From a virus, in the IMG/VR virus record IMGVR_UViG_3300031787_000601, positions 1 through 29,977 of that record: a stretch of DNA of 29,977 nucleotides. The stretch is one strand, 5' to 3'. Of the stretch, positions 1,995 through 25,628 are shown one piece after another. The stretch's first letter is position 1, and each line of letters begins with the position of its first letter. The position numbers and the translations under genes are program-made. Below the pieces are notes generated by a model that saw only the letters and a list, made by a program, of their open reading frames with translations, ran no database searches and was not told the DNA's origin.

Positions 1995-2002
1995 GATAAA
2001 TA
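1995..2002 (+). promoter_or_regulatory. Late-promoter-like octamer GATAAATA
   Basis: The 38-base gap before the 598-aa fibre gene holds GATAAATA, one base from the T4 late promoter consensus TATAAATA. Its end is 21 bases before the ATG at 2024, so a start about 6-7 bases downstream would leave a short leader. The context (late structural genes, + strand) fits. No -35 element is needed for T4-type late promoters. Evidence is motif plus position only. Confidence 0.45.
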
Positions 2003-2023
2003 CAGTGAATTGGACGAACAACT

Positions 2024-3820
2024 ATGACATACCGCGTAGACAGATATAACGGAACTTTTTTAACGAATGTTGCTGACGGCACCATCGATAATACTACGGA
2101 TTTAAAATTTGTAGGCAGGAACTATACAGGCTACGGCGAAGTACAAAACGAAAATTTTCTTCATTTATTAGAAAATTTTGCTAACACAATACCGCCATCT
2201 AAGCCAATCTTAGGACAGATATGGTTTGATTCTGTTAATAAAAAATTAAAATTCTACGATGGAACAAAATTTAAAGTAGCCAGTGGTGCTGAAATAGCGT
2301 CAACGCCTCCTCCAGGACTAACAGCAGGCGATTTATGGTTTGATACTAATACTAATCAATTATCAGCTTGGAACGGGTCAAGCTTCGTGCTAATTGGACC
2401 TCAGAGTGCTCCAGGATTTGGTACTTCACAGATTGTTACTCAGGTTGTAAAAGATTCCAATAACACCAGTCATGTTATCCTACGTGCTGTAGTTGGCGGA
2501 GTTACCACAGCTATTTTCAGCAATGATGACGATTTTACTTTATCAACTTCAAATAACATAGCAGGTTTTTCAGAAACAGGACGACAAGTTAAAAAAGGTG
2601 TTACTTTAAATTCTGTAAATTCTACAGGTGTAAGTACCGGTCAAGTATTTTGGGGCACAGCTAGTGATGCTCTTAAACTAGGTGGCGTATCTCCGTCTAA
2701 TTATATTCGTTCAGACATTGAAGGCGGATTTAATAACACTATTGGGTTCCAGGCAGGTTTAACTGTTGGAACTAGTACAAGAAAAGACCTTAAAATTTAT
2801 GTAAATTCATCTGTTGGCCAACAACCGATTATTGAAAATCAAATTAATGGTCAAATTTTAGTTAGAATAAGTGCTGGTGGTTCAAACGTCGATAAAGACG
2901 ATATGATGATATTTTCTAGGCAGATATATGACGTTGCCGATCCAGACTCGGAATTTTGTATTTTACCTGGGTCTACATCAAAGTATAATCTAGGTTACAG
3001 TGGTAAAAGATGGAATAAAATTTACGCTAATCATCTATTTGGCGATGTTGAAGGAAATGTAACAGGAAATAGTACTGGTGTACACAAAGGCAGCGTTAGA
3101 GACAATTCAAATGTTATTTCTTTTGATGCTGACACAAGAACATTTTATGGAAGATTCGAAGGCGAATTTGCCGGTCCTATTGTAGGTCAAGCTTCTTCGG
3201 CTATCAGTGCTACTAGATTACAAGTAGGATCTAACATTTATAACCCTAGTGAGTTGGCCCTTCCTGGTTCGGCATCAATACCAATTAGAACTTCAATAGG
3301 AACTATCAGTGCTGTATTGTTTAACGGTACATCAACTAACAGTCAAGCAATCGAAGGAAGATTACCGTCTGTAGAAAAAGATCCTGATACTGTAGTACTT
3401 AGAACAGCAGGAGCGGATATAAATGCTAGATTTTTTAACGGTACGTCTACTAGTTCTAGATACGCTGACTTAGCTGAAAAATACCTCGCAGATAAAGAAT
3501 ACGCTGTAGGCACAGTAGTAGCAGTAGGCGGAGAAGCAGAAGTACGGGAAGCACAATTTGGAGATAGAGCCATAGGCGTTGTTTCAGAAAACCCTGCGTT
3601 CAGAATGAATGAGGATTTAACAAACGGCACATATATAGCATTAAAGGGAAGAGTTCCAGTCAAAGTTACTGGATCCATTAGGAAAGGAGACAGATTGGTA
3701 GCTGCTAATAACGGATGTGCTATTCATGCTAGTTTCCATCAGTACCCAGATGTTTTTGCTATTGCTCTAGAATCTTCAGATGATGTAGGAACAAAAATAG
3801 TAGAAGCTTTAGTATTATAA
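2024..3820 (+). CDS. Tail-fibre protein, 598 aa, modular
   Basis: The N-terminal ~125 residues hold two tandem copies of a G-x-x-WFD-x5-L-x4-G-x-x-F module (around residues 64-89 and 102-126), often seen at the start of marine myovirus fibre proteins. A central segment has TSKYNLGYSGKRWNKIYA (about 318-335), followed by one ~28-residue KGS...FD...F-x-G module like those in the upstream partial gene. NGTSTSS-type linkers then lead to a C-terminal domain (about 478-598) starting YADLAEKY and containing GVVS and KGRVPVKVTGSIRKGDRL. That domain resembles the C-terminal or autoproteolytic-type domains of other phage fibres; cleavage is not shown. A late-promoter-like octamer lies upstream. Likely a structural adhesin or connector. 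Confidence 0.82.
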   Translation: MTYRVDRYNGTFLTNVADGTIDNTTDLKFVGRNYTGYGEVQNENFLHLLENFANTIPPSKPILGQIWFDSVNKKLKFYDGTKFKVASGAEIASTPPPGLTAGDLWFDTNTNQLSAWNGSSFVLIGPQSAPGFGTSQIVTQVVKDSNNTSHVILRAVVGGVTTAIFSNDDDFTLSTSNNIAGFSETGRQVKKGVTLNSVNSTGVSTGQVFWGTASDALKLGGVSPSNYIRSDIEGGFNNTIGFQAGLTVGTSTRKDLKIYVNSSVGQQPIIENQINGQILVRISAGGSNVDKDDMMIFSRQIYDVADPDSEFCILPGSTSKYNLGYSGKRWNKIYANHLFGDVEGNVTGNSTGVHKGSVRDNSNVISFDADTRTFYGRFEGEFAGPIVGQASSAISATRLQVGSNIYNPSELALPGSASIPIRTSIGTISAVLFNGTSTNSQAIEGRLPSVEKDPDTVVLRTAGADINARFFNGTSTSSRYADLAEKYLADKEYAVGTVVAVGGEAEVREAQFGDRAIGVVSENPAFRMNEDLTNGTYIALKGRVPVKVTGSIRKGDRLVAANNGCAIHASFHQYPDVFAIALESSDDVGTKIVEALVL

Positions 3821-3829
3821 GGAAAAAAA

Positions 3830-5065
3830 ATGCCGACAATTACGCCGGGTGTAACACCAATATCGTTTAGCGATTGGGACAATTTATATAACACATTATT
3901 AGGTATTATTGGGCCTATTGCTGTAGATAATACAGGAAAACCATTAAATTCAGCCAAGGGTGTGGGTTACGGATTAACTTCGGCATTCTTAGCTTCGGCA
4001 CCTTACCCTTTTACTAAAATTATTTCTACAATTACTAGAGCTAATCCGGGAGTAGTTACCACATCAACAAACCACGGATTCGCAAACGGTGATATTATAT
4101 TCCTTTCAGGATTACCGGGGCTTTGGGTTAGCGAAGCAGCAGGGCTCGAAGGACAATACTTTGAAGTTACAAGTGCTACATCAAACACTTTTGCTCTTAA
4201 AGACTCACAGTTGACCGGCTTAGGATTGCCAGCGTACCCGTCAAATAACGGAACAGTTACTCAACCTATAGTACATAAAAGCCAATTTGACAGAATCAAA
4301 GTAGATCTTGATGCTGTATATCAACACATTTTTGGAATTAATTCTGGAGCATCATCGCCAACGCGAGCGACCACAATACAGGGAAGTGTATATAATCAAT
4401 ATTATACAGGTATAGATACAGCCTTATCTAAAAAATTAGTTTTAAAAACATATGAATCTGTACTGATAGCTACTAGAAGCCAAACATCCAACTGGGGTGA
4501 CGGTGCCTCTGGTATCGATGCTACGTTTACAGTAACGTGGCCTGATGAGTTGAAATTTTTTCAATATTGGAATACTGGCGGATATTTAAAATTTAGTATT
4601 ATTATTTCTAACCAAACAACCACAGGGGCTCAGAACAATAAGGAAGTGGCATGGACAAGTCTAATAAACAATAACTTTCCTATGTATTATACGGGATTTA
4701 CTAAAGCGGTCATGGGCTACGACTCAACAACTTTTATTGAAAACAGAACATCTGATACAAATAATTTTACAGAAGAAGGAGCATTCACTTCATCTACGGC
4801 TGGATTTACACAAATTTATCTAAAAAATTCAACTACTAGTCCGTATACATCAAACTACATTCGCATGGAACACTTTAGAGTAGTAGGTCAACCAAACGCA
4901 ATTCAATTTAATTTGTTATTACAAGACCAGGTTTCAAATGCTTTTACTTCAGGTGTAACAGCAGATATAACATTCAATATTAATGCTGTCTATACCAAAA
5001 CTCCAATCCCTCTCGGATGGGATCCTTCTACACAGATTACCTGTTCATTCACTAATACCCTATAA
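3830..5065 (+). CDS. Virion structural protein with an FCCH-like module, 411 aa
   Basis: The start is the ATG at 3830 after TAAGGAAAAAAA, 9 bases past the previous stop. The N-terminus (PTITPGVTPISFSDWDNLYN) is followed by a segment at about 70-130 with TTSTNHGFANGDIIFLSG and then YFEVTSATSNTFAL. This pattern is the ~60-residue module often annotated in phage tail proteins as ubiquitin-activating-enzyme FCCH-like; it is a fold resemblance and not an E1 enzyme. The rest is rich in Thr, Ser, Asn and aromatics with beta character, as in tail or baseplate proteins. It is the last gene of the structural block and is followed by an inverted repeat. The exact virion role is unknown. Confidence 0.65.
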   Translation: MPTITPGVTPISFSDWDNLYNTLLGIIGPIAVDNTGKPLNSAKGVGYGLTSAFLASAPYPFTKIISTITRANPGVVTTSTNHGFANGDIIFLSGLPGLWVSEAAGLEGQYFEVTSATSNTFALKDSQLTGLGLPAYPSNNGTVTQPIVHKSQFDRIKVDLDAVYQHIFGINSGASSPTRATTIQGSVYNQYYTGIDTALSKKLVLKTYESVLIATRSQTSNWGDGASGIDATFTVTWPDELKFFQYWNTGGYLKFSIIISNQTTTGAQNNKEVAWTSLINNNFPMYYTGFTKAVMGYDSTTFIENRTSDTNNFTEEGAFTSSTAGFTQIYLKNSTTSPYTSNYIRMEHFRVVGQPNAIQFNLLLQDQVSNAFTSGVTADITFNINAVYTKTPIPLGWDPSTQITCSFTNTL

Positions 5066-5070
5066 TCCAG

Positions 5071-5101
5071 TTAGCTCGGCATATATAATTTGTCGAGCTA
5101 A
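5071..5101 (+). promoter_or_regulatory. Intergenic inverted repeat, 8-bp perfect stem, around a TATAAT-like core
   Basis: TTAGCTCG (5071-5078) pairs exactly with CGAGCTAA (5094-5101), leaving a 15-base AT-rich loop containing TATATAAT. It fills most of the 39-base gap before the ATG at 5105. No T-run follows, so it is a poor intrinsic terminator. It could be an RNA processing site, a start-site hairpin or an operator over a promoter. Confidence 0.45.
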
Positions 5102-5104
5102 ACT

Positions 5105-5428
5105 ATGGAAAAATCTCTTGAACTTATAATTAAAAAATCTGATAGATTATTATCAGCTAAAATCAAACGACAGACTCTTAAGGAGAGGTTTGATGCTGAT
5201 ATTACATTTGGATATAATGGTGGAATTTTTAAAGTTGATCAGCAGCTGATAACTTATACGAATTTCTTATTATCTTTAGACAAACAACATAATGTAATAC
5301 TATTAGATATCAATCAAACACCTATTGTAATAGACGATCTATCTAAATTTCAAAAAGATATTTTAGAAAGATATTTTATGGCACTGGGGCGATACAATGC
5401 CGGATACCAAGATTTAAAAAATGGATAA
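5105..5428 (+). CDS. Unknown protein, 107 aa
   Basis: I do not recognise this protein. It begins with a basic helix (SLELIIKKSDRLLSAKIKRQ), has a short beta region near FGYNGGIFKVDQQLITY, and ends with a helix (LSKFQKDILERYFMALGRYN). No catalytic motif, signal peptide or membrane segment is visible. It opens the glycosyltransferase cassette, 4 bases after the inverted repeat, and its stop overlaps the next ATG by 8 bases, so the two are probably translated together. No strong ribosome-binding site is seen. Confidence 0.6.
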   Translation: MEKSLELIIKKSDRLLSAKIKRQTLKERFDADITFGYNGGIFKVDQQLITYTNFLLSLDKQHNVILLDINQTPIVIDDLSKFQKDILERYFMALGRYNAGYQDLKNG

Positions 5429-6194
5429 AGGTATAGTAATATTTGGTCATAATTCTAAAGATATAGATTATGTTAAATTATCTGATATGGCAGCAGGATA
5501 TGCTGTAAAAAAATTAAATGTTCCTGTAACACTAATTACTGATCATAAATCTGTAACCAATAGTCAATCCAAATTAAAAAATATAGATAATCTTTTAGTT
5601 GTAGACAGGCCACCTAGTGTCAATACAAGACAACTTCTAGGGCAGCATATAGATTTTATCAATACCAACAGACATCTAGCTTTTAAATATTCTCCGTATG
5701 ATCGTACCTTATTAATTGATTCAGATCTTTTTATCCTTACAGATAGATTAAACGCATACTGGAATTCAGATAAAGAATTTTTAATAACCGAAGGAATGAT
5801 TCCGATTGGTGATCGATTATCTTCAGACACTGTAAAATTATCACCAACAACTATAACTATGCGATGGGCGACAGCCATTATGTTTTCTAAAACTGACACG
5901 GTTGAAAATATTTTTAAAGTAGTAGAATATGTTAAAGAAAATTGGTTTTACTTTATTGATCTTTACAATTTGCCCCCTACTAGTTTTAGGAATGATTTTG
6001 CTTTTACCATAGCCAATCATATTGTTTACGGATTCTTGCCCGCAGATAATTTTTTACCAAGTCCTATGATGGCACTAGAAAATTTAAAAGTTAAACAATT
6101 TAATAACGATAATATTGTTATTGACAAATACACTATTGATACTGATGTTCATATTATGGACAAATTTAGTTTACAGGATAGTATATATGAATAA
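5421..6194 (+). CDS. GT-A fold glycosyltransferase-like protein, 257 aa
   Basis: The N-terminus GIVIFGHNSKD, the following VPVTLITD strand and the metal-binding DSD (residues 100-102, in RTLLIDSDLFIL) fit a GT-A nucleotide-sugar transferase of the GT8/nucleotide-diphospho-sugar type. About 50 residues on, TITMRWATAIMFSKT fits an acceptor-side strand, and FRNDFAFTIANHI resembles the ND region of such folds. The donor sugar and acceptor are unknown. It overlaps both neighbours, within a run of four GT-like genes. The late + strand position suggests action on virion proteins or a surface glycan. Confidence 0.65.
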   Translation: MDKGIVIFGHNSKDIDYVKLSDMAAGYAVKKLNVPVTLITDHKSVTNSQSKLKNIDNLLVVDRPPSVNTRQLLGQHIDFINTNRHLAFKYSPYDRTLLIDSDLFILTDRLNAYWNSDKEFLITEGMIPIGDRLSSDTVKLSPTTITMRWATAIMFSKTDTVENIFKVVEYVKENWFYFIDLYNLPPTSFRNDFAFTIANHIVYGFLPADNFLPSPMMALENLKVKQFNNDNIVIDKYTIDTDVHIMDKFSLQDSIYE

Positions 6195-7038
6195 TGATTT
6201 TGGTTATCTAATTATAATTTCTAAAAGTCAAACTCATAGGTACGATCTGATGGCAGTATTATTGGCTCAATCTATAAAACGTACTCAAAAACAGGGATAT
6301 GATAAGATAGCTTTAGTAACAGATGATCAAGATAAATTATCATGGTTTAAAGGTATGCCTTATTTTGATTCTGTAATTTTTTGGGATAAAAAATCACACT
6401 GGGACGGCAGGTCTTATATGGACGAATTGTCACCTTGGAAATTTACAGTATGTTTAGATACTGATATGATTTTTTTCCGCGATACCAGTCACTGGGTTGA
6501 TTATTTTATTAGAGAAAATTATCTATATGTTGCTAATAAAGTTTTACAATATAATGGTGAGCTAATGACTAACGATCATTGTAGAAAAACTTTTACAGAC
6601 AACAATCTTCCTATGCTTTATTCTGGTTATACTTTTTTTGCTAAAAATGAAAAATCTAAAGATTTTTTTGACTTAGGTAGGACAATAATAGAAAATCCTA
6701 AAGAATTTAAGAATTTCTTTCTTTATAATAATATTCCTGAAGTTGTAGGTACAGACGAAGCATTTGCTCTAGCTGCTAAAATTTTAGATATAGACAACGA
6801 TATATCCTATCCTTTAGAATTTCCAAGATTTACCCATTTAAAATCTATATTACAAGATGAAGTCACTGGAACAATTAAAGATGATCTTGGATATTACTTT
6901 AATGAAAAAATTTTTAAAATTGGAATTTTTAATCAAATAGATATTTTACATTATTCTGATAAAGATATTGACATTAGTACTTTAATACAATCTTACCAAG
7001 ATGAATTTTTAAAGAATATGAAGGTCAGTCATGAATAA
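6187..7038 (+). CDS. GT-A fold glycosyltransferase-like protein, 283 aa
   Basis: The ATG at 6187 overlaps the preceding stop by 8 bases. A longer reading from 6115 lies inside the upstream gene and is unlikely. The N-terminus (FGYLIIISKSQTHRYDLMAV) and the DTD motif (residues 91-93, in FTVCLDTDMIFF) resemble the previous gene in layout: beta strand, helix, strand ending in TDD, then the metal site. GTDEAFALAAKI near residue 214 is like the late acidic motif of GT8-type enzymes. It is probably a second sugar transferase acting in the same pathway. No signal peptide or membrane anchor is seen. Confidence 0.65.
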   Translation: MNNDFGYLIIISKSQTHRYDLMAVLLAQSIKRTQKQGYDKIALVTDDQDKLSWFKGMPYFDSVIFWDKKSHWDGRSYMDELSPWKFTVCLDTDMIFFRDTSHWVDYFIRENYLYVANKVLQYNGELMTNDHCRKTFTDNNLPMLYSGYTFFAKNEKSKDFFDLGRTIIENPKEFKNFFLYNNIPEVVGTDEAFALAAKILDIDNDISYPLEFPRFTHLKSILQDEVTGTIKDDLGYYFNEKIFKIGIFNQIDILHYSDKDIDISTLIQSYQDEFLKNMKVSHE

Positions 7039-7603
7039 TCTTTACATTCTTTTTGATATATTATCAGGAACCATTATAAAGGTATCATCTACAGAAATAG
7101 AAAACGATCTTGATTCAAGACAATCTATAAAAGTAGACCAACATATCTTAGATCACTTAAATGAAAGTAACTCTTTTGAAAGGTTATTTACGGATTTTAA
7201 AGCCTTCATAACAGATAAAGGCCTACGTATTGTTGATCAACGTAAAACCACTGCCGATAAAACTTATAATAAATTATTACCTATACCATATATACATAGA
7301 TTACAAGACGCTGTAGCAGATCTTAAACTAGAAATTACCAGTTTAGAAAATAAACCAGTATTAAAAATTAAATTATTAGCAGAAAAAGATATTCGGTTAA
7401 ATCCTTACAAGAATAAAACCTATATACATCTAACAGAAAAAAATGACGTTAATGGTCATTATCAAACTTTTGAAATTGATCTCAATAAGTTTGATGATGA
7501 AATAATTTTTGATATTGATCGTTGCGATTATAAAAAATTATTTGCCAATCAAATTAGTTTTTATCATCGTAAAAAAATGAACATAGTGTATACAATTATA
7601 TGA
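7031..7603 (+). CDS. Unknown protein of the glycosyltransferase cassette, 190 aa
   Basis: The ATG at 7031 follows GAAGGTCAGTC and overlaps the upstream stop; its own TGA overlaps the next ATG. The N-terminus LYILFDILSGTIIKV is beta-rich. The middle has a helical LQDAVADLKLEITSLENK segment, and the C-terminal third alternates charged and hydrophobic residues (KTYIHLTEKNDVNGHYQTF). There is no recognisable catalytic motif. Its tight coupling to GT genes on both sides implies a shared job, perhaps as an accessory factor, but this is only context. Confidence 0.6.
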   Translation: MNNLYILFDILSGTIIKVSSTEIENDLDSRQSIKVDQHILDHLNESNSFERLFTDFKAFITDKGLRIVDQRKTTADKTYNKLLPIPYIHRLQDAVADLKLEITSLENKPVLKIKLLAEKDIRLNPYKNKTYIHLTEKNDVNGHYQTFEIDLNKFDDEIIFDIDRCDYKKLFANQISFYHRKKMNIVYTII

Positions 7604-8517
7604 AAACATCTGATCTAGATATTATTTTTATTTCTTATGACGAACCTAACGGAGATTTTAATTATGCTGATCTCTGTAATAAAGTTCCTTATGCTAAACG
7701 AGTTCACGGAATTAAGGGCAGCGATAACGCTCATAAAGCTGCGGCAGAGTTAGCTGAGTCTGATTGGTTTGTTACAGTCGATGGAGATAACATAGTTGAT
7801 GATAAATTTTTTCATATAGAAATAAATGAAACACCAACTATACAAGTGTACGGCTGGTCTGGAGAAAATATTATTAACAATCTACGCTATGGCAACGGTG
7901 GATTAAAAGTTTGGAAAAAAGATTTTGTTTTGAATATGCGTACCCACGAAGCAGCTATTGAATCTAAAGCACAAGTTGATTTTTGCTGGGAAGAAGGTTA
8001 TTTAAATCATCCTACAGTTTTCAGTAAAACTGTTATAAATTCTACACCATTCCAGGCATGGAGAGCAGGCTTCCGCGAAGGTGTAAAGATGTTGTTGAAA
8101 GACGGAGTAAAGGTCGATAGTACAGCAATTACTAATCAAATATACTGGCACAATCTACATAGATTAAAAATTTGGTCTTGTGTTGGCGACCATGTTGAAA
8201 ATGGTATCTATGCGATGCTTGGTGCTAGAGCAGGAAGCTATATGACTTATTGTACTGATTGGAATCACATAGAAGTTAGAGACTTTGAATGTTTAAAAAA
8301 CATATACGAAGAACAGTATGCTGGCATTGAAGGTAATAGAAATCAAATTTTAGAAAAGTTAGAATTTTTATCTTTTGAAATCCAAGCAGGCATCGGGTTA
8401 CAGTTAACTACTTTTGATGCTGATCAAAGTAGATACTTTACTGATCTGTATGCTGAAACAGTAGCACTAGGGCAGACATACTATAATAAGGATCCTGTGT
8501 GGAAAAGTTCTTTTTAA
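7600..8517 (+). CDS. Glycosyltransferase-like protein (GT-A type), 305 aa, paralogue of the next gene
   Basis: The N-terminus LDIIFISYDEPNGD and the DGD metal motif (residues 61-63, in WFVTVDGDNIVD) fit a GT-A/GT2-like nucleotide-sugar domain. LRYGNGGLKVWKKDF and FQAWRAGFREGVKM follow. The same blocks in the same order occur in the next gene (LSYDDPN, DSD, LEYGHGAIKIFRKSF, FHTWRTAFRECVKL), so the pair arose by duplication. The C-terminal ~90 residues are mostly helical and longer than in the paralogue. It starts at an ATGA overlap. Function beyond probable sugar transfer is unknown. Confidence 0.62.
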   Translation: MKTSDLDIIFISYDEPNGDFNYADLCNKVPYAKRVHGIKGSDNAHKAAAELAESDWFVTVDGDNIVDDKFFHIEINETPTIQVYGWSGENIINNLRYGNGGLKVWKKDFVLNMRTHEAAIESKAQVDFCWEEGYLNHPTVFSKTVINSTPFQAWRAGFREGVKMLLKDGVKVDSTAITNQIYWHNLHRLKIWSCVGDHVENGIYAMLGARAGSYMTYCTDWNHIEVRDFECLKNIYEEQYAGIEGNRNQILEKLEFLSFEIQAGIGLQLTTFDADQSRYFTDLYAETVALGQTYYNKDPVWKSSF

Positions 8518-9182
8518 GTTATGATGATCCTAATCTAGCTGAAAATTTTTTAGTAGCTAGATCTAAAATAAACGATCTTAATCTTTTTACTACAAAAGAG
8601 GGTATAGCTAAATCTCATAAACTCTGCGGTGACCAATCTCTAACAGACATGTTTTTAGTCATAGATTCGGACGCTTATCTGCTTGATAGTTTTAGAATGT
8701 CACAAGTCTACGACAGTATCAATGAACCTAATAAGATGTATATTTTTTCTGCTAGAAATCCCATAAATGATTTAGAATACGGGCACGGTGCTATAAAAAT
8801 ATTTCGAAAATCTTTTTTTACTGATGCAGAAGTCGTTGATTTTTCTACAAGTTTTTTTGGTAAGATCGAACATGTAAACTTAACTTTAAATATACATCGT
8901 TTTAATTCTAGTGAATTTCATACTTGGCGTACAGCATTTAGAGAATGTGTAAAGCTGTCGTCCTCTGTAATTAAAAATAGAAATAAGTATGATGACGAAT
9001 ATAGGTTAGAAACTTGGTGTGAAAAAGCCAACGGAAATGATTTTTCTCAGGAATGTCTAAATGGTGCTCGAGAAGGTAGGGAGTATGGTTACAGATTTAA
9101 ACACAGTGTTGATGATCTAAAAAAGATAAATGATTTTAATTTTTTAAAAGAACAATATGTTTTGGCAACGAGACCCGAATAA
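8499..9182 (+). CDS. Glycosyltransferase-like protein, 227 aa, shorter paralogue, GTG start
   Basis: The start is a GTG at 8499, inside the last codons of the upstream gene (19-base overlap). It is supported because LSYDDPN aligns with the upstream paralogue's start. The DSD motif is at residues 56-58 (FLVIDSDAYLL). It shares the YG-x-G-x-x-K and W-R-x-x-FRE-x-VK blocks with the 305-aa neighbour but lacks the long C-terminal part. The radical SAM gene starts 26 bases before its stop. It may have a different acceptor or be a partner subunit. Confidence 0.6.
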   Translation: MEKFFLSYDDPNLAENFLVARSKINDLNLFTTKEGIAKSHKLCGDQSLTDMFLVIDSDAYLLDSFRMSQVYDSINEPNKMYIFSARNPINDLEYGHGAIKIFRKSFFTDAEVVDFSTSFFGKIEHVNLTLNIHRFNSSEFHTWRTAFRECVKLSSSVIKNRNKYDDEYRLETWCEKANGNDFSQECLNGAREGREYGYRFKHSVDDLKKINDFNFLKEQYVLATRPE

Positions 9183-10542
9183 AAAGTATATTAAGATTGC
9201 TAATCAATTAGACAAAACAGGTAAAGGTTTTTGTCTAGCTAAATGGCACATGGTGACTATTCATCTTCACACAGGTGACAATCACAGTTGTTATCATCCG
9301 TCTATGCATAGAGTTAGTGTTGACGAAGTTAACGATAATCCCGCAGCATTACACAACAGTAATTACAAAAAACAGCAAAGAAAATTAATGTTAGAGGGAG
9401 AACGTCCTTCAGAATGTAGTTATTGTTGGGCGTTAGAAGACCTAGGACAAATTAGCGATAGACATCTAAGAAGTTGGGAATTTGAAAATACTATGCCTAG
9501 CATTAACCAGGTAAAAAATTTACCATGGGATGCTGATGTTTACCCTAGATATATGGAATTAAGTTTTGGATCAGAATGCCAAATGAAGTGTATGTATTGT
9601 GCTCCAACTATTAGCAGTGCGTGGGAAGGTGAGATTAAAAAACATGGAGAATATCCTTTACAATATTTGCCCAACCGCAGACAGTATTCAATAAATCCTA
9701 AAGCAAGAACTGTATATAAAGAGGAAAATAATCCTTACATTGATGCGTTTTGGAAATGGTTTCCCGAATGCTACAAAAATTTAGAGACTCTTAGAGTCAC
9801 TGGTGGCGAACCATTATTAAGCACAAACTTTATAAAGATGCTAGATTATATTGAAAATAATCCAAGGCCAGATTTACAGTTTGCTATTAATAGCAATATG
9901 AGTGTACCCCAACGTAATCTTGATAAATTTATTCATCGTGCTAAATCGTTAAAAGAAAATAAAAAAGTAAAAGAAATAATGCTTTATACTAGTGTTGATA
10001 CTTGGGGCAATCAAGCAGAATATATTAGGAATGGTTTAGATTTAGTTCAGTGGGAAAACAATATTCATAGGTATCTAAACGAAGTTCCAAATAGCAAATT
10101 AGGTTTCATGATAACTGTAAATCTTTTAAGCATTTACAATTTTGAAGAATTATTAGATAAAATATTAGAGTTGCGTAAAAAGTATAACACTCGCTTTAAC
10201 AGAAGAATACAAATTGATACTCCCTATCTTTTAGAACCACCACATTTAAGTCTTCAGATAGCCAATGATGATCAAATTAACCGACTGTATAAAGCTGTTG
10301 AATATATGTCAACACAAGTTGATAATTTAAGTTATAAACAATTTGATAGCACAGAATTATCTAAATTTCAGCGTGTAGCTAAATGGGCAGAAGATAATAG
10401 ATACAGTCAAGATCTATTGCCTACTTTAAGAAAAGATTTTGTTTCTTTTGTCGATGAACATGATAAGAGACGAGGAACGAACTTTTTAAGTACGTTCCCC
10501 GAAATGGAAAGTATTTACAATCAGTGGAAAGTTACTGATTAA
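9157..10542 (+). CDS. Twitch-type radical SAM protein, 461 aa
   Basis: C141-x3-C145-x2-C148 (CQMKCMYC) would hold the SAM-binding [4Fe-4S] cluster, and VTGGEPLL (GGEP at 216-219) is the usual SAM-contact motif. Four more cysteines lie upstream (C26, C45, C87, C90, the last pair as ECSYC). This arrangement, with an N-terminal FC...HLHTG...C segment, is what I know from phage proteins annotated as twitch-domain radical SAM enzymes. They may carry an auxiliary cluster. The reaction is unknown. It ends the GT cassette and overlaps it, so it may modify a sugar, a nucleotide-sugar or a fibre peptide. It ends in a hairpin shared with the convergent thyX gene. Confidence 0.8.
   Translation: MFWQRDPNKKYIKIANQLDKTGKGFCLAKWHMVTIHLHTGDNHSCYHPSMHRVSVDEVNDNPAALHNSNYKKQQRKLMLEGERPSECSYCWALEDLGQISDRHLRSWEFENTMPSINQVKNLPWDADVYPRYMELSFGSECQMKCMYCAPTISSAWEGEIKKHGEYPLQYLPNRRQYSINPKARTVYKEENNPYIDAFWKWFPECYKNLETLRVTGGEPLLSTNFIKMLDYIENNPRPDLQFAINSNMSVPQRNLDKFIHRAKSLKENKKVKEIMLYTSVDTWGNQAEYIRNGLDLVQWENNIHRYLNEVPNSKLGFMITVNLLSIYNFEELLDKILELRKKYNTRFNRRIQIDTPYLLEPPHLSLQIANDDQINRLYKAVEYMSTQVDNLSYKQFDSTELSKFQRVAKWAEDNRYSQDLLPTLRKDFVSFVDEHDKRRGTNFLSTFPEMESIYNQWKVTD
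10519..10540. terminator. Hairpin across the convergent gene ends
   Basis: AATCAGT (10519-10525) and ACTGATT (10534-10540) form a perfect 7-bp stem with an 8-base loop. The stem covers the stop codons of both convergent genes, whose coding ends overlap by 11 bases. There is no strong T-tract on either side, so it is a weak intrinsic terminator at best. It is the only candidate for separating the two transcription units. Confidence 0.4.
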
Positions 10543-15038: not shown

Positions 15039-15463
15039 GAAACTTCAGACTTTCCTTTAGAAATAGGTGTAACATTAATGTATCCTGCTGGTCTATTAGT
15101 ATCCATACCTTCTTCTGATAACATTTGTCTTACAATGTCTCTAAACCAACGATCTACGATTTCTTCCTCAGGGTCACCGTCAAAACCGTAACCCTCTTGC
15201 TTTAATTTTAACACAAATTGGTCGTTCCAGTCAAGTTCGAAAAAACCATTTCGAATATTATCTGGATTTACTTTGGTATCGAGGACGCTAACCCAAGGCT
15301 CATTTTTATGAGTAGCTCTTTCTTTTGGTGTTAGTTTAGCCTGCTCAGCTTCTTCTTGTGCCCGAACTGTTTCGGCTACGGCTTTATCTCTGGCTGCTTG
15401 TAATGCTTCTTTTTCTGCCTTTAATTTATCGAGGCCAAACACTTTATCTATAATTTTTTTCAT
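15035..15463 (-). CDS. Conserved unknown protein with N-terminal coiled coil, 142 aa
   Basis: The ATG at 15463 overlaps the queE stop as TAATG and follows GGGGAA; a longer start 12 bases upstream is possible. Residues 1-50 are a charged helix (LKAEKEALQAARDKAVAETV) likely to form a coiled coil. The C-terminal part has FELDWNDQFVLKLKQEGYGF and DRWFRDIVRQML, an acidic helical domain. The pattern is familiar from T4-like marine phages, always without function. It sits between queE and the 5' nuclease. Confidence 0.62.
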   Translation of the reverse strand: MKKIIDKVFGLDKLKAEKEALQAARDKAVAETVRAQEEAEQAKLTPKERATHKNEPWVSVLDTKVNPDNIRNGFFELDWNDQFVLKLKQEGYGFDGDPEEEIVDRWFRDIVRQMLSEEGMDTNRPAGYINVTPISKGKSEVS

Positions 15464-16323
15464 TAAGTTCCCCACTCATTTTTAAATAACGGTACCTGTA
15501 GTCTGTCGCTATAACGTAAACCTGCTTTTATTGCTAGTTCAGCCACCCGTCGATTGTTAAGTGTGTAGACACTTTCTACACCTCCCACGGGCATCAAATA
15601 TACAGGACCACTAAAACCTTCAGCACGATAAATGTCTACAGTCTCAATAGCTTCTTCTGCATCTTCTTCTGTAGCTATTACAAATTTAAGATATGTATAA
15701 CCAACTTCTTCGTATTCACACACCACACTTGGTAATATAGCTTCGTGTCTTGACTCTCCTGAACAGCTCAGTTTAGCACTTACACTGAAGGTTAATCTAT
15801 GATAACCTCTATTTTCCATACCCCAGTCTAAAAGATATTTTTTAAATTCTGGAGTGAGCGGTTGAGTACCGTTTGTTTCAAAGGTAATCTCTTTGAGATT
15901 TTTCATCTTAGGATGATCTAACAGTTCGGGGTAAGCACGTTGCCACCCAAGCAGCGGTTCTCCTCCTGTGATGACGAGGTGTTCGTCTCTCCATTCATTG
16001 AACGGTAAAATCTCGCAGATTCTTTCTGCGATGGCGTCGGAAGTAAGCATTGGGCTAAGGTCTTTAAAAGCAGGATGCCAGCTAGCGTAACTATCACAAC
16101 CAGTAGAAACCAATGGAAGTTCTTCATATTTTTGAAATGATTCAATATTTGCGTGTGTATAGGCAATGTCGTCGGCTTCAATGCTTATATCACCTTTAGG
16201 CATACCAAAGCCAGCACATTTAAAGTTACAACCAAATGTGCGTAAGAACACAGAAGGTACGCCCATATAACGTCCTTCTCCTTGTACGCTGTAAAACAGC
16301 TCTGCGATTTTAATTTTGCTCAT
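15463..16323 (-). CDS. queE: QueE-like 7-carboxy-7-deazaguanine synthase (radical SAM), variant cluster motif
   Basis: QueE turns 6-carboxytetrahydropterin into 7-carboxy-7-deazaguanine, a step to preQ0. At 286 aa, the start is FYSVQGEGRYMGVPSVFLR, the classic QueE entry motif. VITGGEPLLGWQRAYPEL (GGEP at 120-123) and FETNGTQ follow. The usual CX3CX2C is altered: C32 and C36 are present (GCNFKCAGFGM), but the third position is Phe, and the next cysteine is C76 in STGCDSYASW. I recall phage QueE-like proteins with the same feature, so it is probably a functional variant. The start overlaps mazG by 14 bases. It fits with folE and queD in this - strand run. Confidence 0.9.
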   Translation of the reverse strand: MSKIKIAELFYSVQGEGRYMGVPSVFLRTFGCNFKCAGFGMPKGDISIEADDIAYTHANIESFQKYEELPLVSTGCDSYASWHPAFKDLSPMLTSDAIAERICEILPFNEWRDEHLVITGGEPLLGWQRAYPELLDHPKMKNLKEITFETNGTQPLTPEFKKYLLDWGMENRGYHRLTFSVSAKLSCSGESRHEAILPSVVCEYEEVGYTYLKFVIATEEDAEEAIETVDIYRAEGFSGPVYLMPVGGVESVYTLNNRRVAELAIKAGLRYSDRLQVPLFKNEWGT

Positions 16324-16595: not shown

Positions 16596-16763
16596 TTATA
16601 CACTCTCTTTGTTCTCGTTGTCAAGCTTCTTAGATAACATCCAAGAACCATCGCCATTATCTTTCCAAACTAAAACATCCCCTTCTTTCCAACCATTAGC
16701 TTCTAGGAGATCGGGCGGAAAGGTTATTACTCCGTCATCATCAATAGTTAAAACCCATTTCAT
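16596..16763 (-). CDS. AbrB/MazE-like swapped-hairpin protein, 55 aa
   Basis: Found by reading the gap between mazG and the SGNH gene. The ATG at 16763 lies inside the 3' end of the upstream SGNH gene (23-base overlap), and TAA is at 16596-16598. The pattern WVLTIDDDGVITFPPDLLEA, then GWKEGDVLVWKDNGDGSWML matches the strand-loop-strand of AbrB/SpoVT/MazE domains (ITIPKxLxxxLGxxxGD). These are DNA-binding or antitoxin-type folds. No toxin gene is next to it. It may be a small transcription regulator. AGGAGAAG lies just upstream of the start. Confidence 0.75.
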   Translation of the reverse strand: MKWVLTIDDDGVITFPPDLLEANGWKEGDVLVWKDNGDGSWMLSKKLDNENKESV

Positions 16764-17343
16764 ACAACTTCTCCTTAATTCGTTGAGCTACAATTTTATT
16801 ACCTTCTTCGGTATAATGATTTACTAGTCCTCTATGAAAGGTCCAGTGACTAGTAAAATCCATGTGTAATTCTTCAAAAGCATGATTACAACTAGTTGGT
16901 GTATGATCTATAGCTAGATAAGGCAGCTTAATCAATCTACGAATTTCTCTTCTAACAATATCGTAGATATCTGTTTGATATTGTTCATCATAATGATGTT
17001 TGAACCAATTGTAGGCTGTAACAGTACTTTCATTTTTAGGATCTAGATTAGCTTCTACATCACTAAAGATCAAATCACAGTTAGCGTGTAACTTGCTTTG
17101 ATGTATGGGATTAAGGGTGTGAACTCTAAAAGGACTAGTATGATTTACTATTACTAAATCAAATTTATCTAAATTTTGATTCTTAATCTGATTTAATATT
17201 TTATATTCACCTACTCCGGCCTGAGAAACGTTAGTAATATTATAATCTTTTTTTAATAACTCGGGCCAACCAGACGGACTGTCGGGCCATTTAGCAGAGA
17301 AACTATCACCTGCTAATAAAATTTTTAAATTGTTTTTAGCCAT
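16741..17343 (-). CDS. SGNH/GDSL hydrolase-like protein, 200 aa
   Basis: The N-terminus KILLAGDSFSAKWP gives the GDS block with nucleophile candidate S14. SQAGVGEYKI is a Gly-containing second block, VIVNHTSPFR an Asn-type third block, and a C-terminal His (H176 in GLVNHYTEEGNK) fits block V, though the usual Asp three residues before is Leu. The family includes esterases, acyltransferases and sugar O-deacetylases. It overlaps the upstream SGNH gene by 19 bases. The substrate is unknown; a polysaccharide acetyl group is possible. Confidence 0.7.
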   Translation of the reverse strand: MAKNNLKILLAGDSFSAKWPDSPSGWPELLKKDYNITNVSQAGVGEYKILNQIKNQNLDKFDLVIVNHTSPFRVHTLNPIHQSKLHANCDLIFSDVEANLDPKNESTVTAYNWFKHHYDEQYQTDIYDIVRREIRRLIKLPYLAIDHTPTSCNHAFEELHMDFTSHWTFHRGLVNHYTEEGNKIVAQRIKEKLYEMGFNY

Positions 17344-18143
17344 GGAATAAATTTAGTAGCAATTAAATCGTGAAACGATTTGTTGTAGTGTTCATTGTCG
17401 TCAAGATAATATTTTTTGTGATCAATGAATTTCTTTCTAAAGAACGATTCTACTGTAACAGGTGATATTATAGTAGACTTTAATTTTGTATAAAAATCAA
17501 ACTTTTCCGGAAATTTTACTCTGTCGGTCATATTAAACAGATAGAGTTTACAACCGTGATCTTCACACATTCTATCCATAACAAGTACATCTTTAAAAAA
17601 ATCTCTTTGTTCTAGATGAGTATTTAGATCAAAGAATAATTTTACATCCATGTATGTATCTTTTCGGAGATCTGGTTTTATTAGACCATTTTGATAATCA
17701 AAATTAATATCAGCAATTTTTCCAAAATCTTCAAATGTTGGTTTGTTAAGAAGTTGAAAACGATCGTCTTTAAATATTTGATCATAATACAGATCAACTA
17801 ACGGATTCTTTTTTTCGTGTTTTAATGTAAAAAAATCTGCCGGTAATGTATCTTGCGAAAGAGTTTCGTTAAACGCAAGAACAAATCTATTAAAGCTAGA
17901 TAATAAAACATACACTTCGTCAATGTCGGGGTGTCTATCTAACATAACACGTAACCAATCTGGATATATTCGATTACACACGCCCGGTAACGCATACACC
18001 GATGTTGGCTTAGAAAAAGTTTCAGCGTATGACTCTGCGTAGCTATTATCATTCCACATACTATAACTACCAAAGCCAACCTTGCCGGGAATAGTTACAT
18101 ATCCGCACGTATGACTATCGCCTAAAAATAATGCCCTACTCAT
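17325..18143 (-). CDS. SGNH hydrolase-like protein, 272 aa
   Basis: The N-terminus ALFLGDSHTCGY carries the GDSH variant of the SGNH nucleophile motif (S10). Near the C-terminus, DDNEHYNKSFHDLIA offers the D-x-x-H pair (D249, H252) typical of the catalytic acid and base. The middle has VYVLLSSFNRF, which could hold the oxyanion Asn. It is followed with overlap by a second, shorter SGNH protein. This arrangement suggests a paired or divergent hydrolase. There is no signal peptide, so it probably acts in the host cytoplasm. The substrate is unknown. Confidence 0.65.
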   Translation of the reverse strand: MSRALFLGDSHTCGYVTIPGKVGFGSYSMWNDNSYAESYAETFSKPTSVYALPGVCNRIYPDWLRVMLDRHPDIDEVYVLLSSFNRFVLAFNETLSQDTLPADFFTLKHEKKNPLVDLYYDQIFKDDRFQLLNKPTFEDFGKIADINFDYQNGLIKPDLRKDTYMDVKLFFDLNTHLEQRDFFKDVLVMDRMCEDHGCKLYLFNMTDRVKFPEKFDFYTKLKSTIISPVTVESFFRKKFIDHKKYYLDDNEHYNKSFHDLIATKFIPWLKTI

Positions 18144-20774: not shown

Positions 20775-20992
20775 TATTCTACTCCTTCGCCAAACCAGTC
20801 ATCGACCTGCTGTTCAGCTTCTTGCTGTGTCATGGCATGTACGAATATTTTAGCAAGTTCACCTTGAGTATGTTGAATATTAAATTTAATAACACCTGCA
20901 GGGATCAAATCCCAGTCTCTTTCAACTACAAATTCTTGTAGATGTTTCATTCTGTGTATTAAATTATCTGTGAGGGCTTTGGCTGTGCTCAT
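20774..20992 (-). CDS. Unknown protein, 72 aa
   Basis: The N-terminal helix (AKALTDNLIHRMKHLQEFVV) is followed by a strand (IPAGVIKFNIQHTQG) and an acidic helical C-terminus (MTQQEAEQQVDDWFGEGVE). No known motif is present. The ATG overlaps the folE TGA (ATGA), and its stop overlaps the micropeptide start. It may be an accessory to its neighbours. Confidence 0.6.
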   Translation of the reverse strand: MSTAKALTDNLIHRMKHLQEFVVERDWDLIPAGVIKFNIQHTQGELAKIFVHAMTQQEAEQQVDDWFGEGVE

Positions 20993-21825
20993 CTTGGGGC
21001 AAACTCCTGTTGTAGTTTAATGTTATCAAAGAATTCTTTCTTAGTATTGCCGTCGTCTTTGAAAGCACCTTTTAATACTGTAGTCTGTGTAAGACTAGAG
21101 TGTGCCATAATACCGCGATTCTCACAGCATCCGTGTACTGCTTGGATGTAGACACCTAGATCTTTGGCTCCTGTGGCACGTTCGATCTCCCTAGCAATGT
21201 CATTACAAAGTTCCTCCTGGAGAGTACCTCGACGGGCACACCACTGAGCGATCCTTGTATACTTGCTAAGTCCGATGAGTTTCTGAGCCGCAATAAGACC
21301 AATATAAGCAACACCAGTAACGGGTTGGTGATGATGGCTGCACATGCTACGAAGCTCACTGCGAACAACCAACATACCTTCATAACGATCCGCTGTGTCG
21401 TTGGGAAATGCTGTTGCGTCTGGTGCTGGTTCATATCTTCCTGCCATTATTTCATTAAAATACATCTTAGCCAGTCTACGTGCTGTACCCTGACTGTTAG
21501 GATCGTTTTCACGATCAATCAGCAAACGATCTAGCACTAGTTCAAATGCTTCTGTTGCTTCGTCGATTAGTTTTTCTTTATCGCCTTCGTGTAAGAAGTC
21601 GCTGATATTATCTCCAGCCCAGAATCGTTTTCCTTCACGCTTCATTTTAAAGCGAAGATGATCACCAAGATATGCTTCTTTGTAGCCACCGTCGCCTGCC
21701 ATTGCGTCAAGTGCTGTTTCTTTTTTAATATAAACCGTTTTACCTAATGGTTCATATTTTTCTTCTTTAAAATCTTTATTCACATCTGCGTGAATTACAG
21801 GATCCGGTGTAAATTTGGTTGTCAA
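20989..21825 (-). CDS. folE: GTP cyclohydrolase I (FolE), with N-terminal extension, TTG start
   Basis: FolE converts GTP to dihydroneopterin triphosphate, the first step to folates and 7-deazaguanines. The zinc and active-site blocks are clear: MCSHHHQPVTGVAYIG (C162, H165), GLSKYTRIAQ and HGCCENRGI (C233). At 278 aa it is longer than most bacterial forms (about 190-220) because of ~85 extra N-terminal residues with no recognised motif. The start is a TTG at 21825 with CGGAGAA about 6 bases upstream; the extension is open, so this start is likely. It follows the GT-B gene in the - strand run and pairs functionally with QueD and QueE. Confidence 0.96.
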   Translation of the reverse strand: MTTKFTPDPVIHADVNKDFKEEKYEPLGKTVYIKKETALDAMAGDGGYKEAYLGDHLRFKMKREGKRFWAGDNISDFLHEGDKEKLIDEATEAFELVLDRLLIDRENDPNSQGTARRLAKMYFNEIMAGRYEPAPDATAFPNDTADRYEGMLVVRSELRSMCSHHHQPVTGVAYIGLIAAQKLIGLSKYTRIAQWCARRGTLQEELCNDIAREIERATGAKDLGVYIQAVHGCCENRGIMAHSSLTQTTVLKGAFKDDGNTKKEFFDNIKLQQEFAPR

Positions 21826-21860: not shown

Positions 21861-22961
21861 TTATTTTAACATCTTTAATAGTTTATCGCAACTAAAGAAA
21901 TCATTCGTTAATATATCGACCTGTTTATTTAGGCTTGGTAAAAACTTTTCATAATTTTCCATGTACTGGATTATCTTATGGCAGACTTCTTTCCTGTGGA
22001 TTTCATATGATTCAAAAGATTCAGTCCATTCGCTAGGATACTTAAATGTATCAAACGCCATTTCGCTGTAGCTTAATCTATCAGGAACCATAGGAATAGC
22101 ATCTACTAACGCACCTTCGTACCAGCTAATGCCTAGTGTTTCTTGTAAATTAACACTGAACACTAACTTTGCCTCTCCTAGCATATTATGATATTCATTT
22201 TTTGTCAACGGGTATTCTTGACAGACTTTGAACTCATATTGAGGAAGATGTTTTTTAAGATCTTCAAAGATTGGCAATTGTTTTTCTGGAGCAATACGAT
22301 GTGGAAATAGTATAAGATTACGTTTAGGCATATTCTTATACATTAACAATGTATCAGACATATATTCCATAGGCCATCCAGAACGAACTACATTTTTCCA
22401 TTCGCCTTTAAGGGCATCTGCTACATCGTCTTCTATCCAAGGATTTTCAAACATTCCGTCATTGATAAGGTTACGGATAAACATCTCAATATGAAAATTT
22501 GTAGCAAAGTAGTTGTGATCAAATGCGTAGAAGAAACTCTTCTCGGCATTTCTAACCCAAGGCTTATTGCCTACAAGACGACCTAGGAAGTCTTGAGGAT
22601 CATAACTGCCAGCATGCCATAATCCGTGTGTTGTTACCGGAATGCCCAGCAGTTCACTCATGTACTTTAAGTTTATGATACCAGGATGCCAAGCATCAGT
22701 AAAAATAAAGTGATCACCGGGATGAACGGCTCCGTTACAAAATAAGCGGCCCATCTGCTCAACCTGATTAGCTTTGTATATATTGGTACCACCAAAATTA
22801 AGAAAGGCACCAGGAGTAGTGGCACTAGGAATATCCTGAGGGCCAGAGATAATTTGAACATCATGTCCCCTTTTTTGTAACAAGGTAGGCAAGTGAGATT
22901 TCCACTGGCCTGTGTACCTTGTTTCTACTGCTTCGAGATCTACAAGAAATACCTTAGCCAT
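21861..22961 (-). CDS. GT-B fold glycosyltransferase (GT4-like), 366 aa
   Basis: The ATG at 22961 overlaps the upstream stop by 8 bases; a longer reading to 23003 lies inside the upstream gene. The N-terminal Rossmann strand (AKVFLVDLEAVETRYTGQWK) starts a donor-free domain. The C-terminal half has FPHRIAPEKQLPIF (Arg/Lys donor contacts) and ETLGISWYE, whose E274 and E282 form the EX7E motif of GT4-type enzymes. Donor and acceptor are unknown. The location between queD and folE, far from the late GT cassette, raises the idea that it glycosylates DNA or a pterin/deazapurine. A host or phage glycan is an alternative. Confidence 0.78.
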   Translation of the reverse strand: MAKVFLVDLEAVETRYTGQWKSHLPTLLQKRGHDVQIISGPQDIPSATTPGAFLNFGGTNIYKANQVEQMGRLFCNGAVHPGDHFIFTDAWHPGIINLKYMSELLGIPVTTHGLWHAGSYDPQDFLGRLVGNKPWVRNAEKSFFYAFDHNYFATNFHIEMFIRNLINDGMFENPWIEDDVADALKGEWKNVVRSGWPMEYMSDTLLMYKNMPKRNLILFPHRIAPEKQLPIFEDLKKHLPQYEFKVCQEYPLTKNEYHNMLGEAKLVFSVNLQETLGISWYEGALVDAIPMVPDRLSYSEMAFDTFKYPSEWTESFESYEIHRKEVCHKIIQYMENYEKFLPSLNKQVDILTNDFFSCDKLLKMLK

Positions 22962-23172
22962 GGCGTTTATTGTATGGCTTGTATCCACGATCCGTGTAGC
23001 CACGATTGTTATCCCAACGTCTTGGAGGACGTTGACTATTTAAAAACGCACGATAATTTTCATTATCTTTATTGTATAAATGTGCGGGATTAAACTCACG
23101 CAACTCGAAACGGCAAAAATCCAAGTAGCGGTCGAGATCGTCAAAGATTTTCTCAACTTGTTGTTTCATCAT
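22954..23172 (-). CDS. Small Arg/Asn/Tyr-rich protein, 72 aa
   Basis: AAGGAAAC lies before two tandem ATGs (23172, 23169). The N-terminal half is an acidic helix (VEKIFDDLDRYLDFCRFELR). The C-terminus is basic and low complexity (RPPRRWDNNRGYTDRGYKPY), as in nucleic-acid-binding or disordered tails. No known motif. It lies between queD and the GT-B gene and overlaps the latter. Confidence 0.6.
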   Translation of the reverse strand: MMKQQVEKIFDDLDRYLDFCRFELREFNPAHLYNKDNENYRAFLNSQRPPRRWDNNRGYTDRGYKPYNKRHG

Positions 23173-25429: not shown

Positions 25430-25628
25430 CGTCGTAATGGATAGTTTCGTGATCATGTTCCCATTGCTTACGTTTAAGTATAGCAATTTCATCCTTTACT
25501 GTCAACTTATGTTTCTTCAAATCAGTCAATCTTTGGTCAGTAAAGTTGCCAGTTCTTTCCAAAGTTTCAATTTGCTTGTCAAGTGCCCTGTGTGCTTCTT
25601 CCAAATGCTTGATTCTATTTTCATACAT
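25416..25628 (-). CDS. YdcH/DUF465-like coiled-coil protein, 70 aa
   Basis: IKHLEEAHRALDKQIETLER, then a turn and RLTDLKKHKLTVKDEIAILK form the helix-turn-helix pattern of YdcH (DUF465) proteins, with the H-x-x-LD and LKK-x-K-L-x-x-KDEI blocks. These are short helical hairpins of unknown function, often found in bacteria and phages. It ends with an acidic His-rich tail. It overlaps the DpdA-like gene by 8 bases. Confidence 0.68.
   Translation of the reverse strand: MYENRIKHLEEAHRALDKQIETLERTGNFTDQRLTDLKKHKLTVKDEIAILKRKQWEHDHETIHYDDDER

Follow-up and report, generated by a model that had tools for sequence, protein, structure and literature searches.

Why would a phage place glycosyltransferase genes and a radical S-adenosylmethionine (SAM) gene directly behind the genes for its tail, and on which acceptor would the encoded enzymes act? 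The question is raised by IMG/VR virus record IMGVR_UViG_3300031787_000601 (29,977 bases, the whole stretch analysed here and hereafter called the window), in which seven overlapping genes on the + strand, here named A to G, occupy positions 5105-10542 immediately downstream of tail-type genes. Two of them (B and C) are assigned as GT8-type glycosyltransferases, two (E and F) are predicted GT-A glycosyltransferases and one (G) is a radical SAM protein, and their order is fixed among related loci. The best reading of this cassette, which we hold at about even chances, is late modification of a tail protein, the predicted acceptor, with a glycan tailored by the radical SAM enzyme.

A linked cassette of fixed order behind the tail genes

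An earlier note, made from the sequence alone, had described seven overlapping genes here, and their coordinates, overlaps and DxD motifs were confirmed. Successive genes overlap by 8, 8, 8, 4, 19 and 26 bp, with the start of gene C taken as the ATG at 6187 (the list of open reading frames (ORFs) had an upstream TTG at 6115). The ratio of nonsynonymous to synonymous substitution rates (dN/dS) lay between 0.04 and 0.20 for A to G, calculated for A to E against two close relatives and for F and G against one, these ratios being rough with dS above 1; all seven genes therefore look maintained by purifying selection. Single-sequence searches of Pfam, NCBIfam and PHROGs gave no significant match for A to F of the window; in these searches only G fitted a known family significantly.

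To examine linkage, loci were fetched using E alone, and counts were limited to contigs reaching far enough. The E-selected loci carry C and D without exception (76/76 each), as they do B (62/62), A (50/50) and F (71/71), and 55 of 57 carry G; since the linkage profiles were built from members of the same set and some contigs are near-identical, these counts are not independent. The order of the cassette is fixed, and tail genes lie immediately upstream wherever the contig extends. Marine contigs from metagenome-assembled genomes (MAGs) that are phage-like by gene order also retain A-B-C-E plus G-type genes. The block described in the earlier note, with four glycosyltransferases and a twitch-type radical SAM enzyme right after the tail genes, is thus upheld by profiles, models and fixed position, and its homologues are strictly linked rather than scattered.

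Variation is found 3' of F, where the block holds up to four matches to the G profile as well as other radical SAM types. UDP-glucose/GDP-mannose dehydrogenase genes occur at this variable 3' end in relatives, and a carbamoyltransferase gene in locus L085. Proteins resembling SGNH hydrolases and a sulfotransferase were also seen there by eye.

Two pairs of predicted glycosyltransferases

Genes B and C were found to be mutually homologous by profile comparison. The DxD motif is D100-S-D102 in B and D91-T-D93 in C, with both aspartates invariant in the respective family alignment. In B, D100, D102, H244 and K248 are invariant in its own alignment and in the joint alignment with C; the invariant residues of C are D91, D93, D190, H255 and K259. 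The joint B and C profile matches glycogenin (E 7.6e-6), and its DxD aligns with the DxD of that enzyme. The predicted model of C (predicted local distance difference test score (pLDDT) 89.6) matches GT8 structures across its length, with Z scores of 16.6 for GlyE (225 residues), 16.1 for LARGE1 and 14.9 for glycogenin. By its predicted fold, C is a GT8-type glycosyltransferase, and B is assigned to the same type through its profile homology to C. Like the GT8 enzymes glycogenin, LARGE1, GlyE and LgtC, the two proteins have the fold, the DxD, a C-terminal His, the metal-binding one in GT8 enzymes, and a C-terminal Lys, but they are only 10-15% identical to these enzymes. Because neither matches Pfam, including Glyco_transf_8, we call them GT8-type and not Pfam GT8 members.

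E and F form a second pair, homologous by profile (hhalign 3.3e-41), while no relatedness of E to C was detectable by sequence. Their DxD motifs, D61-G-D63 in E and D56-S-D58 in F, also have both aspartates invariant in the family alignments. In the predicted model of E (pLDDT 88), residues 1-147 make up a GT-A domain at the N-terminus, which matches many GT-A enzymes with Z scores of 9-11 (maximum 11.1), and the C-terminal part is helical. Nucleotidyltransferase folds score close to glycosyltransferases against this model, but a glycosyltransferase is preferred because the DxD is invariant. E is therefore a predicted GT-A glycosyltransferase, and F is putatively assigned through its profile homology to E. 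The family has no match in Pfam, NCBIfam or PHROGs, and its members also occur in Photorhabdus and Streptomyces.

The radical SAM protein and the two small proteins

Gene G matches NF033640 (N_Twi_rSAM) with 322 bits against a cut-off of 170, over profile positions 2-398 of 398. It thus fits this family along the whole length and far above the cut-off, and is here tied to four glycosyltransferases. Its cysteines C26, C45, C87, C90 and C141-x3-C145-x2-C148 are invariant among 21 sequences. Among solved structures MoaA is the best match, over partial length only. The N-terminal region of NF033640 is of the twitch type, like that of peptide maturases; we know of no member with a known substrate.

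A and D appear to be small proteins without known relatives. Neither matched any family or any PDB sequence; the alignment of A has 30 rows. The identity of D drops to about 15% among the loci, yet the gene is retained in all of them.

A late-type leader in front of gene A

TAAATA, the core of the T4 late box, was found within 60 nt 5' of A in 22 of 30 non-redundant leaders, against a chance expectation of 2.9 leaders on average and 8 at most in 500 mononucleotide shuffles. It also lies within 60 nt upstream of the family of the 598-aa tail gene in 38 of 55 matches, and is rare upstream of B (0/74), C (1/83), E (0/84) and G (4/67). The presence of boxes at A and their rarity before the genes that follow suggest that A opens a unit extending through G.

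In the window, a hairpin ends 3 nt ahead of the ATG of A at 5105, and all five members of the close clade keep its 11-bp stem. Stems of 10-12 enclosing the box occur in the window's clade and in loci L021, L025, L024, L034 and L085, but do not exceed chance in several other leaders. The arrangement resembles the leaders of T4 e, soc, 49 and I-TevI, in which a hairpin able to hide the translation start, with a late box in its 5' arm or ahead of it, keeps read-through transcripts from being translated until late promoters fire (PMC3014915). The T4 leaders use a TATAAATA-type box, whereas the window's clade has TATATAA instead. No clear Shine-Dalgarno sequence was seen between the hairpin and the ATG of A in this clade. 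Because late-type boxes precede A and the hairpin abuts its start as in T4 e and soc, A to G probably form a single late operon. The earlier note had taken the overlaps to imply co-translation; a single operon is supported here.

Relatives of the cassette and other occupants of its place

The DNA polymerase encoded in the window (28.3-29.96 kb) is nearest to that of phage Phosso (49%), followed by those of Atu_ph07 (46%) and RaK2-type jumbo myoviruses (45%), and a close relative was found on a contig of 269,730 bases. Judging by this affinity and by the size of the contig, this uncultured phage most likely belongs to the jumbo myoviruses, in the neighbourhood of the Polybotosvirus/RaK2 group.

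With tblastn, the A-, B-, C-, E- and F-type proteins and G of the window had no match among the cultured phages searched; a divergent radical SAM paralogue was the only query to match them, in Vibrio phages and two others. In Phosso and Atu_ph07, the block that follows the orthologue of the 598-aa gene encodes a tail-like protein and, besides several radical SAM proteins, one of the cupin type. PF04055 was matched by four Phosso proteins and by the single Atu_ph07 protein scanned, and no homologue of A to F above noise was found in this block. The C-terminus of the tail-like protein reads CHTSCHASCHSSRSRR or CHSSCHASCHNSRSRR, with a conserved CHxSCHASCHxSRSRR end, and this protein looks like a possible radical-SAM-modified virion peptide. 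The same DNA motif was seen in 10 IMG/VR stretches, with seven copies in one of them (L144 5624-5905). A Cys-rich core peptide of this kind was also considered for the window's clade and is not supported by the ORFs examined. The Phosso and Atu_ph07 cassettes thus stand in the same place after an orthologous tail gene and likewise carry radical SAM genes, but differ in the types of these, in the cupin protein and in the tail-like protein. PA5oct has the tail genes and no cassette in the stretch read. Together, the gene contents suggest that the slot after the 598-aa tail gene may hold lineage-specific tail-modification genes.

Among bacteria, F homologues were found in Photorhabdus, adjoining a gene with a GT4 domain, and in a Bacteriovoracaceae MAG, adjoining a G homologue (577 bits). 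In an Oligoflexia MAG (L109 8804-10711), an F-type glycosyltransferase domain is fused to a radical SAM domain in a 654-aa frame, with PF04055 over its cut-off. This adjacency and this fusion tie F-type glycosyltransferases to radical SAM chemistry outside phages. The Oligoflexia fusion was also seen to adjoin further radical SAM genes. By eye, the F homologue of Streptomyces also seemed to have a GT4 gene as its neighbour, which was not confirmed.

The 269-kb relative carries matches to rfaE domains I and II and to heptose epimerase, all below equivalog cut-offs. A second block of this contig encodes two PF01501 (GT8-family) glycosyltransferases, an epimerase and a fusion resembling rfaE-II and mannose-phosphate isomerase; together the two sets cover L152 3254-6116 and L153 5000-10097. 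Given the ADP-heptose-type genes, a nucleotide-sugar supply for the cassette is plausible. A PF00483-type sugar-phosphate nucleotidyltransferase was not found in six relatives, of which five are represented by contigs below 83 kb. A third block (L151, contig 12000-31900) encodes a tryptophan-halogenase-family protein (PF04820, 281 bits), an aminotransferase and several radical SAM proteins including NF033640 members; it is natural-product-like, with proteins that by eye resemble 2-oxoglutarate (2OG) oxygenases and an amidinotransferase.

Tail genes upstream and other genes of the window

The genes upstream of the cassette are tail-type, with PHROG matches to tail-fibre and virion proteins, and include two candidate acceptors (Table 1). 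In the record of PA5oct, the tail genes, with the homologue of the 598-aa protein among them, are marked as found by ESI-MS/MS (electrospray ionization tandem mass spectrometry). With 70-79% identity within the close clade, the gene for the 411-aa protein counts as one of the faster evolving in the block. Amid the tail genes, a 165-aa protein (1018-1515, +) shows an HxD...H pattern resembling a 2OG-Fe(II) oxygenase and has no Pfam match; such a protein could hydroxylate a tail residue and so provide a possible sugar acceptor.

The window has no tRNAs and a G+C content of about 28-40%. Tail-type and cassette genes lie on the + strand up to about 10.5 kb, and beyond this the genes are on the - strand. 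By eye, genes on the - strand at 15463-16323, 20989-21825 and 25621-27147 resemble QueE, FolE and DpdA, which suggests 7-deazaguanine DNA modification; the DpdA-like gene had no PHROG or Pfam match. Two overlapping genes at 16741-18143 (-) resemble SGNH hydrolases by eye, with no PHROG match, and a 380-aa protein (21861-23003, -) resembles a GT-B glycosyltransferase by eye, with no PHROG or Pfam match.

Table 1. Features of the cassette, its leader and the tail genes in the window, with the tail-like proteins of two cultured phages
Feature	Position	Strand	Description
Gene A	5105-5428	+	107 aa; small protein without recognisable family
Gene B	5421-6194	+	257 aa; putative GT8-type glycosyltransferase
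Gene C	6187-7038	+	283 aa; GT8-type glycosyltransferase by predicted fold
Gene D	7031-7603	+	190 aa; without recognisable family, evolves fast
Gene E	7600-8517	+	305 aa; predicted GT-A glycosyltransferase
Gene F	8499-9182	+	227 aa; predicted GT-A glycosyltransferase of E's family; GTG start
Gene G	9157-10542	+	461 aa; N-terminal-twitch radical SAM protein
598-aa tail-type virion protein	2024-3820	+	PHROG virion and tail-fibre matches; Peptidase_G2-type domain; candidate acceptor or context gene
411-aa variable tail-type protein	3830-5065	+	Partial match to PHROG 584 major tail protein; candidate acceptor
Late-promoter-like box GATAAATAC	1995-2003	+	5' of the 598-aa tail gene
Leader hairpin	5071-5101	+	Arms 5071-5081/5091-5101; stem 11; -15.8 kcal/mol; loop box TATATAA at 5082-5088
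Tail-like protein with CHxSCHASCHxSRSRR	L134 17679-18599 (Phosso); L136 20449-21339 (Atu_ph07)		In radical-SAM cassette after tail gene

Proposed function of the cassette

We propose that a late promoter just 5' of A would start expression of A to G, and that in the window's clade the leader hairpin would cover the start of A in read-through transcripts begun further upstream, so that the seven genes would be translated mainly from their own late transcripts. With nucleotide sugars as donors, B, C and the E/F-type GT-A enzymes may assemble a short glycan by successive transfers, and G may carry out a radical step on this glycan or on the acceptor residue, with A and D as putative small accessory proteins. 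The most likely acceptor would be a protein of the tail or tail fibre whose gene lies immediately upstream. For the slot as a whole, the tail-like protein cassette of Phosso and Atu_ph07 suggests tail modification.

Several points weigh against this proposal. A glycan or modified residue has so far been unseen on any virion of such phages, the operon does not recognisably encode an acceptor, and A and D are left unexplained. In the window's clade, neither the tail genes nor the ORFs contained a Cys-rich or repeat core peptide. In addition, sets of GT8 genes with rfaE and UDP-glucose dehydrogenase in marine myophages have been interpreted as modifying the O-chain (PMC7029224), and glycosyltransferase clusters in jumbo phages as outer polysaccharide systems (PMC7824862).

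These published interpretations of similar clusters also speak for the main alternative, a different target, namely the surface polysaccharide of the host (O-antigen or capsule). The cassette would remodel it so as to prevent superinfection, for instance, or to keep progeny from sticking to debris, and adjacency to the tail genes would reflect the exchange of a whole host-recognition island. The lipopolysaccharide enzymes LgtC and WbbM belong to the GT8 fold, the dehydrogenase and carbamoyltransferase genes stand at the variable 3' end of relatives, and the GT4 gene adjoins the Photorhabdus F homologues, all of which fit such remodelling. However, the boxes are late-type and not early, A to G include no evident export or membrane protein, flippase or polymerase, and the linkage to the tail genes is fixed, so that we consider a host-surface target possible but rather doubtful. 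The late-type boxes and the contents of the Phosso/Atu_ph07 slot, together with this lack of export or membrane proteins, favour a virion acceptor over a host glycan.

In a further alternative, G would first mature a tail-protein peptide in the manner of ribosomally synthesized and post-translationally modified peptides (RiPPs), and the glycosyltransferases would then glycosylate that peptide. The several radical SAM proteins and the CHxSCHASCHxSRSRR protein in the Phosso/Atu_ph07 slot would agree with this, as would the twitch-type region that NF033640 shares with peptide maturases; but the lack of a core peptide in the window's clade and the partial match of G to MoaA, its best among solved structures, make this sequence of events unlikely. 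Decoration of modified phage DNA is very improbable, although phage glycosyltransferases can act on DNA and QueE-, FolE- and DpdA-like genes were seen in the window by eye, since the cassette has late-type boxes and is part of the tail module, away from the replication and base-modification genes. The DNA glucosyltransferases of T4, moreover, are of the GT-B type.

Late modification of a tail protein therefore stays the best reading, with a further specification that we regard as tentative: a dedicated late virion glycosylation pathway, in which the radical SAM enzyme would tailor the glycan or the priming residue of a tail protein, placed in a slot with lineage-specific cassettes (glycosyltransferases plus radical SAM here, the CHxSCHASCH tail-protein cassette in Phosso/Atu_ph07). 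The earlier note had seen a dedicated pathway to build and attach an unusual sugar or to modify a fibre peptide. The building of an unusual sugar is unsupported by the cassette, as none of the seven proteins resembles a nucleotide-sugar maker and the ADP-heptose-type genes of the 269-kb relative lie elsewhere, and a fibre is a candidate acceptor beside a host envelope glycan.

Relation to described systems and implications

The earlier note knew of no described system with this exact gene set, which holds in the collections searched, but systems of this kind have already been described. The host recognition clusters of pelagimyophages form a variable island in the structural region, where tail-fibre genes are found together with GT8s and radical SAM cassettes, and the same phages carry rfaE and UDP-glucose dehydrogenase (PMC7029224). 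By description, the window is alike in that a single variable island holds tail-fibre genes together with those for glycosyltransferases and radical SAM proteins. It differs in that the core A to F(G) is strictly ordered over many contigs, with only the 3' end variable, and in that the phage is probably a jumbo myovirus near Polybotosvirus/RaK2. We therefore say that the cassette resembles a host recognition cluster by gene content and variable 3' end, and do not file it as one, these clusters being defined as lying between vrlC and gp14 in T4-like marine myophages. What is new here is a strictly ordered variant of this kind.

E and F represent a type of glycosyltransferase without a Pfam match that is also present in Photorhabdus and Streptomyces. 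The question of the acceptor is open to testing, given that the genes keep a fixed order, that the leader is late-type and that some cultured phages have a different cassette in the slot. If the acceptor is the virion, the tails of these phages would bear phage-made, enzymatically tailored glycans or residues, which would add a chemical layer to host recognition.

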